64,000 nt of DNA, taken from assembly GCF_000332075.2 (NCBI RefSeq), contig NZ_ALVU02000001.1, positions 2,492,324-2,556,323 of the forward strand. The letters run 5' to 3'. This document shows, one piece after another, positions 39,234 through 41,464 of the stretch. How positions within the stretch are numbered: position 1 is the stretch's first letter; the number at the start of each line of letters is the position of its first letter. Position numbers and translations under genes: made by a program. This stretch comes from Synechocystis sp. PCC 7509 (GTDB taxonomy: Bacteria > Cyanobacteriota > Cyanobacteriia > Cyanobacteriales > Chroococcidiopsidaceae). The notes beneath the pieces were generated by a model. The model made no database searches. It was not told where the DNA came from and saw nothing but the letters and a program-made list of their open reading frames with translations.

Positions 39234-39698
39234 TTAGTCTGAACTTGCTGCCATCGCGCGGATAATATCACCACGAGTTAGAATCCCAACTACGAGGTTG
39301 TTCGCATCAACTACTGGCAAGCGTCGGATATCGCGATCGTGCAGCAATTGAGCCGCATTTTTAAGGGGTTTGTCGGCAGAAATAGTAATAGGATCGGTAC
39401 TCATAACTTCGCCTACAGTTTGCCCTAAAGCCTTATGCAAGTCGCGCTCGTAGGTGGCAGGATTTTGCAGAAAAATCACGCTATCAAGAAACATAATGTA
39501 GGCAGGAGGCGTGACTCCCGTTTCTTGCCACATGAGATCAGTTTCGGAAATAATTCCTACTAAGCGATCGTCATCTCCGACTACGGGAAGTCCGCTAATT
39601 CGACGCTCTGCCATGATTTTAATTGCTTCATTTAGGGGCGTTTGGGGCTTAACGACAACGGGCAATGAAGTCATCGCCTCAGCAACGGTTTTAGGCAT
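39234..39698 (-). CDS. CBS-domain pair protein
   Basis: 154 residues with two CBS motifs: VAEAMTSLPVVVKPQTPLNEA…GIISETDLM, and VGEVMSTDPITISADKPL…VGILTRGDIIRA. It is a stand-alone Bateman module that would bind adenine nucleotides and regulate a partner. It is co-directional with and just upstream of the NblB-like gene, which raises a possible link between energy state and phycobilisome turnover (inference). Confidence 0.85.
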   Translation of the reverse strand: MPKTVAEAMTSLPVVVKPQTPLNEAIKIMAERRISGLPVVGDDDRLVGIISETDLMWQETGVTPPAYIMFLDSVIFLQNPATYERDLHKALGQTVGEVMSTDPITISADKPLKNAAQLLHDRDIRRLPVVDANNLVVGILTRGDIIRAMAASSD

Positions 39699-40032: not shown

Positions 40033-40081
40033 AAAAAGCTATCCGCTCCTACCAAGGTTAGTTAACCTTAAGTAAGAGCGG
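40033..40081 (-). terminator. Terminator of the small-RNA/small-ORF transcript
   Basis: On the minus strand, CGCTCTTAC, AAGGTTA, a short loop, TAACCTT and GTAGGAGCG build a long hairpin (40043-40081), followed after GATAGC by five U residues (40033-40037). It ends a transcript coming from about 40.3 kb and separates it from the CBS gene. Confidence 0.65.
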
Positions 40082-40145
40082 TGTAGTGGATCTTCAAGTT
40101 GAAATCAGACTGCCGGAAGGAACTCCAAGCAAGCCTAAGCTTTAT

Positions 40146-40217
40146 TTAGAGAACAGCCCCGGCGCGCAGCCGGCTCATTTCAACTTGATGACCCAAGGAT
40201 ATACTACTTTCTATCAT
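40146..40217 (-). CDS. 23-codon small ORF with perfect ribosome binding site
   Basis: The ATG at 40217 lies eight bases after GGAGG of an 11-nt sequence fully complementary to the 16S rRNA 3' end. The peptide starts MIESSISLGHQVEM and ends SRLRAGAVL; it has no membrane segment or signal. A second ATG two codons upstream overlaps the Shine-Dalgarno sequence. The back half is basic. It could be a leader peptide or a functional small protein. Its coding sequence contributes one arm of the long-range inverted repeat, so translation should change the RNA fold. Confidence 0.5.
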   Translation of the reverse strand: MIESSISLGHQVEMSRLRAGAVL

Positions 40218-40338
40218 GGGCATCACCTCCTTGTTGCCTTTACGGCGTAAATCTCAAAGGGACAAAGCTTGTTGCTTTGGGTGTTTGTCACCTTCATTTA
40301 AGATAACACAACATTTTGTAATTGTTGCCTGCAAAAAG

Positions 40339-40408: not shown

Positions 40409-41464
40409 TTAGAGAGCGTTACCCCGTGGTAGAACCTCTTCAGGGAATTGGAATTGTTCGTGAGGCTGATCTTGAGGAGCCATCCAAGCGCGGATGCCTT
40501 CATTCAGCAAAATGTTTTTGGTGTAAAAAGTCTCAAACTCTGGATCTTCCGCCGCCCGTAATTCTTGGCTAACGAAATCGTAAGCGCGTAAGTTTAGGGC
40601 TAAACCAACTACGCCCACCGCACTCATCCACAATCCAGTTACGGGTACAAACAACATAAAGAAGTGCAACCAACGTTTGTTGGAAAAGGCAATTCCAAAT
40701 ATTTGCGACCAAAAACGGTTTGCCGTGACCATCGAGTAGGTTTCTTCCGCTTGAGTGGGATTGAAGGCGCGGAAAGTATTGGATTGCTCGGAATCCTCAA
40801 ACAAGGTATTTTCTACGGTTGCGCCGTGAATGGCACACAATAGCGCTCCTCCTAATACTCCGGCTACTCCCATCATGTGGAAGGGGTTAAGTGTCCAGTT
40901 GTGGAATCCTTGGAAAAATAGCAAGAATCTAAATATTGCTGCTACCCCAAAGGATGGCGCGAAAAACCACGATGATTGTCCCAAGGGATACATGAGAAAT
41001 ACACTCACAAATACCGCAATCGGGGCGCTAAATGCTAGGGCGTTGTAAGGACGAATCCCGACCAAGCGGGCAATCTCAAACTGACGCAACATAAATCCGA
41101 TTAAGGCAAAGGCTCCGTGCAGGGCGACAAATGCCCATAGTCCCCCTAGCTGACACCATCGGGTAAAGTTCCATCCAGCTTCTGGTCCCCATAAAAACAG
41201 CAAGGAGTGTCCCATGCTGTCGGCGGGGGTTGATACCGCTACGGTCAGAAAGTTTGCTCCTTCTAAGTAGGAACTAGCGATGCCGTGAGTATACCAAGAG
41301 GTGACAAAGGTTGTCCCTGTTAACCAGCCGCCTAGAGCCATGTAGGCGCAAGGGAATAGTAGGATTCCGCTCCAGCCTACAAATACAAATCTGTCGCGCT
41401 TTAACCAGTCGTCTACGGTATCAAATATGCCGCGACTCGGTGCGCTACCAACTGCAATTGTCAT
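40409..41464 (-). CDS. psbD: Photosystem II D2 protein
   Basis: 351-residue D2 reaction-centre protein in the thylakoid membrane. With D1 it binds P680, pheophytin, QA and the non-haem iron. The sequence is canonical from [20 protein letters not shown] to [12 protein letters not shown], including [26 protein letters not shown] and [12 protein letters not shown]. Five membrane helices are intact. GGAG lies 11 bases before the ATG. psbC, which often overlaps psbD, is not downstream, so this is a stand-alone psbD copy, possibly the light-induced second copy (psbD2) known in cyanobacteria. Confidence 0.98.

Follow-up and report, generated by a model that had tools for sequence, protein, structure and literature searches.

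A conserved cyanobacterial small RNA with a 23-codon reading frame and a predicted switch at its start codon

Introduction

The described systems closest to the element studied here are the small RNAs (sRNAs) Sye_sRNA1 of Synechococcus elongatus UTEX 2973 and ncl0160 of Synechocystis. The element is an RNA locus with a 23-codon open reading frame (ORF) on the minus strand of a 64,000-nucleotide (nt) stretch of Synechocystis sp. PCC 7509 (contig NZ_ALVU02000001.1, positions 2,492,324 to 2,556,323), which was analysed as a whole and is called the window. Sye_sRNA1 is, by report, more abundant than any other sRNA with the exception of 16S ribosomal RNA; it has the counterparts TU475 and TU2045 in Synechocystis, is conserved and located mostly 3' of psbD or cobB, and has a conserved structure and a main transcript of about 200 nt (PMC6091082). 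ncl0160, reported as very abundant, has 83 homologs in cyanobacterial genomes with a conserved peptide of 23-25 amino acids behind a ribosome site, ending in TAA (47), TAG (34) or TGA (2), and its translation was proposed (PMC4734099). In the two papers no function is given for this RNA, reported to be the most abundant sRNA of a model cyanobacterium.

The RNA of the window is very probably the local copy of Sye_sRNA1/ncl0160. The match is to the published descriptions and not to a sequence; neither text shows the RNA sequence, so the identity of the three is inferred, and the assignment is made because the psbD/cobB synteny, the peptide and the stop-codon proportions agree. As with Sye_sRNA1, a free-standing RNA is predicted here, of about 260 nt compared with the published 200 nt or so. 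As described for Sye_sRNA1/ncl0160, a psbD or CobB/CobQ-like gene lies upstream in 64 of the 109 loci having more than 700 nt upstream (psbD on the same strand in 49, a gene with the CobB/CobQ-like Pfam domain in 15; neighbour counts, here and below, take in three Chloroflexota loci). As in the available account of ncl0160, a ribosome site precedes an ORF that is 23 or 24 codons long in 163 of the 165 cyanobacterial rows of our main alignment (three Chloroflexota loci and short or identical stretches were left out of it), and all three stop codons occur in similar proportions. A first-pass annotation of the window could name no matching cyanobacterial RNA; on the available descriptions the locus does fit Sye_sRNA1 (PMC6091082) and ncl0160 (PMC4734099). 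In the accessible part of a transcript table for Acaryochloris marina, the 291-nt AM1_NC230 occupies the second row by control-condition expression (PMC5295598). Going by this description and not by sequence, it could be the same RNA.

Results

On the minus strand at 40.03-40.31 kilobases (kb), a predicted -10 element, a Shine-Dalgarno (SD) sequence, the 23-codon ORF, a long-range helix and a terminator were found together. Judged from its sequence, the locus is an independent RNA gene about 260 nt long, from predicted promoter to terminator, and it is real and conserved. Its features are the following.

40300-40310, minus strand: predicted extended -10 element, TGTG-T-TATCTT
40222-40232, minus strand: SD sequence AAGGAGGTGAT, 11 nt, complementary to the 16S 3' end
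40146-40217, minus strand: ORF MIESSISLGHQVEMSRLRAGAVL, 23 codons and TAA
40217-40224, minus strand: 5' arm of helix 1, GAUGCCCA, extending to the A of the start codon, predicted by folding
40187-40195, minus strand: 3' arm of helix 1, UGGG-U-CAUC, in ORF codons 8-11, predicted by folding
40147-40194, minus strand: 5' strand of helix 2, spanning codon 8 (last base) to the stop codon (first base)
40088-40126, minus strand: 3' strand of helix 2
40033-40086, minus strand: intrinsic terminator, hairpin at 40086-40038 and T5 at 40037-40033

Transcription is predicted to start near 40295 on the minus strand. The pattern T[GA]TG[CT]TAnnnT was found 25-150 nt 5' of the alignment anchor in 70 of 98 cyanobacterial loci, when 1.5 were expected from shuffles. 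The first-pass annotation had included two leader hairpins in the RNA, the first of which (about 40327-40309) overlaps the predicted -10 element (40310-40300) and therefore probably lies outside the transcript. Other elements that it had listed, namely the 23-codon ORF, a GC-rich hairpin (CCGGC-TGCGC-GCCGG, within the ORF) and the terminator of a hairpin and T5, are all present on this strand. Its claim of full SD complementarity to the 16S tail also stands: the SD complement GGATCACCTCCTTT occurs twice in the organism's own genome, at sites taken as the 3' ends of 16S genes, and the SD itself is the sole copy in the window (shuffle expectation 0.00). The terminator pattern CCGC..GCGG..TTTT is present in 85 of 100 relatives, with terminator stem pairs that vary together, and the fold of the 298-nt stretch beats all 200 dinucleotide shuffles (z = -4.9).

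The covariation indicates that helix 2 is a long covarying stem with ORF codons 9-23 as its 5' strand. In alignment A1, consisting of 66 of 68 chosen cyanobacterial sequences (L124 and L128, the longest, were left out), the helix has 34 pairs and 94.1% of its cells are paired. Double changes were found in 22 of the 34 pairs compared with 10.3 in shuffles, none of 500 shuffles reaching 22, and in 141 cells compared with 45.5. The register is a clear optimum when compared with slid versions. As with Sye_sRNA1/ncl0160, the secondary structure is conserved, its pairs varying together. A long-range helix with one arm in the ORF had been proposed for this locus and is thus conserved and strongly covarying; translation had been expected to break it, and a ribosome would indeed have to melt it, its 5' strand being the ORF.

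Another pairing is possible for the same region. The SD/start letters GATGCCCA (40224-40217) can pair with TGGGTCATC (40195-40187, codons 8-11) to form helix 1, which competes with helix 2, the overlap lying within GGGUCAUC. Helix 1 is conserved, with 89.1% of cells paired in A1. We folded 98 of the 100 non-redundant RNAs (100 of the 165 rows pass a 93% identity filter; two have no anchor). On average the AUG is unpaired with a probability of 0.115 in the 5' half. This value is 0.442 in RNA that begins 35 nt upstream and ends with helix 2, and 0.445 when the rest of the ORF is shuffled; the AUG is more closed in the 5' half in 88 of the 98 compared with the longer RNA, and in 88 compared with the shuffled ORF. 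For the window's own RNA the value rises from 0.34 to 0.90, the 5' piece folding with helix 1 and the longer piece with helix 2. Folding thus predicts a start codon that is concealed in the 5' half and more accessible in the full-length RNA.

Among the 165 rows, the ORF is 23 codons long in 156, 24 in 7 and 17 in 2, and its stop is TAA in 95, TAG in 67 and TGA in 3. A stop is found at the ORF-end codon in 161 rows; L016 has an alignment gap there, and L085, L148 and L165 have lost the stop. When changes were counted on the tree with all 165 rows, 19 led to another stop and 2 were losses. A count restricted to ORFs ending at that codon (19 of 19) is circular and was set aside. Codons 9-23 carry 148 synonymous changes compared with a null value of 122.8 (standard deviation 8.8; one of 400 reaches it), placements that create stops being excluded from the null. 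These synonymous and stop-codon patterns suggest that the ORF is probably translated. The letters AGUAGU (codons 4-5) are unchanged in 156 sequences and vary in the deep loci found by the covariance model; this invariance is partly by construction, because 117 loci were found with a pattern that fixes those letters. In the S. elongatus-like genome (L241, 1495-1620), and alike in L243, a TGA at codon 18 gives a peptide of 17 amino acids. Past this TGA the frame of L241 reads AGTVL and a second TGA; other lineages read Cys, Arg or Trp, then AGAVL and the stop.

Conservation of the ORF and the helices in relatives, which the first-pass annotation had made a test of its proposal, was found. Homologs of the RNA were detected by DNA similarity in 5 of 6 genomes of the genus, the one miss being a genome 65% complete, and in 254 of 291 genomes of the order; the peptide alone as query reaches E<=0.001 in 36 of these 291. 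A covariance model of the RNA matches in 294 of 388 class genomes and in 139 of 160 genera, with one copy per genome among the matches listed, except for G907 with two. Of the 20 misses listed (there are 74 further ones), 13 belong to families f41 and f39, from which two genomes and one genome, respectively, do match the model. Of 386 phylum genomes, 98 contain an exact core pattern, and the rows labelled as outside the class gave no match. Carriage by viruses was rejected on the result of 0 exact matches in viral_contigs. No Rfam 15 family reaches its gathering score over the RNA, and a riboswitch or other Rfam family was rejected on this ground; weak matches (up to E=10) are mostly located upstream of the RNA, in the region of the psbD terminator. 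Annotation based on Rfam therefore misses this RNA.

The pattern search also returned three Chloroflexota loci, labelled Anaerolinea or Anaerolineales, and three further Chloroflexota genomes with a locus of this kind were found among 301 searched in the phylum, the query's own genome included. The six loci represent about three distinct sequences, and the cyanobacterial model scores them at E 2.9e-6 to 2.8e-5 (a rough value, for 91 kb). They have the SD, the start and GANAGUAGU in common with the cyanobacteria, as fixed by the search pattern, and a different ORF, which in its later part supplies the 5' strand for a second hairpin; a terminator-like hairpin follows. In all six the partner of the SD/start lies in the ORF and has other letters, and the pairing beats shuffles at p<=0.05. 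Extension past the stop opens the SD, as predicted by folding, in L092, L175 and, at 90 nt, L201. Such relatives would make the RNA layout old or mobile. The ORF of the Anaerolineales loci L092, L142 and L175 contains CAUCCCUCCU, complementary to their own SD/start region, and a B12-binding protein and a MeaB GTPase (Pfam) are encoded downstream in L092. A divergent homolog, L256, has a GTG start and a 28-codon ORF with a matching start partner CGGGCAUC (p 0.0055); GCGGGCAUC, in the late part of this ORF, pairs with the start region.

In the window the RNA lies between the following two genes.

40409-41464, minus strand: Pfam Photo_RC gene, upstream neighbour, which we take by recognition to be psbD (D2 protein)
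39234-39698, minus strand: CBS-domain protein gene, downstream neighbour, such a neighbour being found in 1 of 133 loci

Downstream of the RNA the window has CBS and HEAT-repeat genes, the former 335 nt past the terminator, and not the genes that are frequent in other loci. These are, on the same strand, a pterin-4a-carbinolamine dehydratase gene (67 of 133 loci) and a presumably porin-like gene (77 of 133), the latter named by recognition from a query without a Pfam match. Measured from the anchor, the downstream gene lies at distances between 220 and more than 1400 nt. A gap of about 20 nt separates the terminator from the dehydratase start in L067 and L074, and three Thermosynechococcus loci and the Chloroflexota loci are without either neighbour. 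In the S. elongatus-like genome (L241) the RNA is located between psbD and the pterin dehydratase. No fixed gene directly downstream was found across the 133 loci, and nothing in the data points to a ligand of the RNA or to a constant target gene downstream. The draft contigs L002-L005, L012 and L024 stop within psbD, at a distance of a few hundred bases from the RNA, and multiple copies of psbD may be the cause.

Discussion

The first-pass annotation had left the choice between a peptide-coupled switch and a small-protein mRNA; a small-protein mRNA with a switch fits best. We give nearly even credence to the proposal that this RNA, very probably the local copy of Sye_sRNA1/ncl0160, works as a self-gated micro-mRNA. 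As long as transcription has produced no more than the 5' half, helix 1 would pair codons 8-11 with the SD/start and hide the AUG. Once the 3' half is made, helix 2 would take the same nucleotides and free the AUG, both steps being predicted by folding, so mainly complete transcripts would be translated. A ribosome on the ORF would melt helix 2, whereupon helix 1 could close behind it, so that each RNA would carry about one ribosome at a time; loss of the 3' end would make the RNA shut itself off. Either the small peptide or the ribosome-bound RNA may be the output, or the two together.

Several results weigh against this proposal. Helix 1 shows no covariation in the 66 cyanobacterial sequences (1 double change compared with 0.7 in shuffles), and a position-free duplex test gives p<=0.05 against shuffles in only 2 of 100 cyanobacterial loci and 1 of 17 deep loci (17 of the 25 found by the model were used in the folding and duplex tests, 8 not being matched by the anchor). 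In the 5' half the AUG is not below 0.25 in 11 of the 17 deep loci and in all six Chloroflexota loci. The SD changes little, from a mean of 0.385 to 0.464, being more open in 67 of the 98 RNAs, and the SD of the window's own RNA does not open (0.29 to 0.24 unpaired). In three of the six Chloroflexota loci (L142, L199, L200) extension does not open the SD, L199 and L200 retaining helix 1 in the longer fold, which slightly lowers our confidence in self-gating. Codons 2-8 have no synonymous excess (36 compared with a null of 43.2). The ORF ends after 17 codons in two Thermosynechococcus loci and in the S. elongatus-like genome, from which we conclude that the C-terminal residues of the peptide are not needed everywhere. 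Lastly, the sequences are related and so the counts are not independent.

Some of these points can be read in favour of a structured regulatory or ribosome-docking RNA, whose SD would recruit 30S subunits or ribosomes, so that an abundant RNA would buffer or report initiation capacity with the peptide irrelevant. The 11-nt SD complementary to the 16S tail, the strong structure seen in the covariation of helix 2, the 17-codon truncations with the RNA kept, the lack of synonymous excess in codons 2-8, and the Chloroflexota loci, which keep the SD and layout with most of the peptide different, are all consistent with it. On the other hand, an irrelevant peptide does not account for the synonymous excess in codons 9-23, the 19 stop-to-stop changes compared with 2 losses, or an ORF of 23 or 24 codons in all but two of 165 rows, and we consider docking alone unlikely, though a serious contender. 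A broader proposal, which we offer as a speculation with a rather small chance of being right, is that an old RNA common to Cyanobacteria and Chloroflexota senses ribosomes and not a metabolite: its own 3' end alone would open the start, which about one ribosome at a time would use and which would close again behind it. Being among the most abundant RNAs of the cell, as reported in PMC6091082, it would buffer initiation capacity or report on it, and the peptide would be a by-product or second signal.

The neighbouring genes suggest other explanations. If the RNA were a cis-acting leader or attenuator of the pterin-4a-carbinolamine dehydratase or porin-like gene, with the micro-ORF as leader peptide, their frequent presence downstream on the same strand and the 20-nt spacing in L067 and L074 would be expected; the widely varying distances, the CBS-domain gene in the window, the lack of these neighbours in Thermosynechococcus and Chloroflexota, the terminator pattern ending the RNA in 85 of 100 relatives and the main transcript of about 200 nt given for the published homolog in the available text (PMC6091082) make this improbable. 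A leader for a fixed downstream gene was rejected because the neighbours are variable. That the locus is only a psbD 3' untranslated region or a decayed remnant is suggested by its position beside psbD in the window and is hardly credible in view of the promoter and terminator motifs and the covariation; it was rejected because in other loci the RNA is present without psbD, behind CobB/CobQ-like or other genes. A type I toxin mRNA, with a small toxic peptide under metastable-hairpin control, would explain the mutually exclusive hairpins around the SD, which resemble those of toxin mRNAs. We consider it very improbable, as by inspection the peptide is not a hydrophobic membrane helix and the RNA occurs once per genome among the matches listed, G907 excepted. 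A consensus promoter scan of both strands gave one weak plus-strand site inside the locus, in the absence of a systematic search for an antisense antitoxin.

In the toxin mRNAs AapA1 and hok, a transient hairpin in the nascent RNA hides the start site and refolds later. The self-gated reading shares with them a start site hidden by a transient hairpin in nascent RNA; it differs in that the peptide is not like a membrane toxin, no antitoxin is known, and the full-length form is predicted to be open. In the attenuators trpL and ermCL a short ORF overlaps mutually exclusive helices and the ribosome changes the fold. The short ORF here likewise overlaps mutually exclusive helices, whereas no fixed gene follows and the RNA ends at its own terminator. 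When compared with its own published counterparts, the available account of Sye_sRNA1 is silent on the peptide, the alternative hairpins and homologs outside the cyanobacteria (PMC6091082), and that of ncl0160 on the ORF-stem overlap and the gating (PMC4734099). Relative to these accounts, as far as they are available, the RNA itself was already known, and what is new here is the predicted gating and the Chloroflexota relatives.
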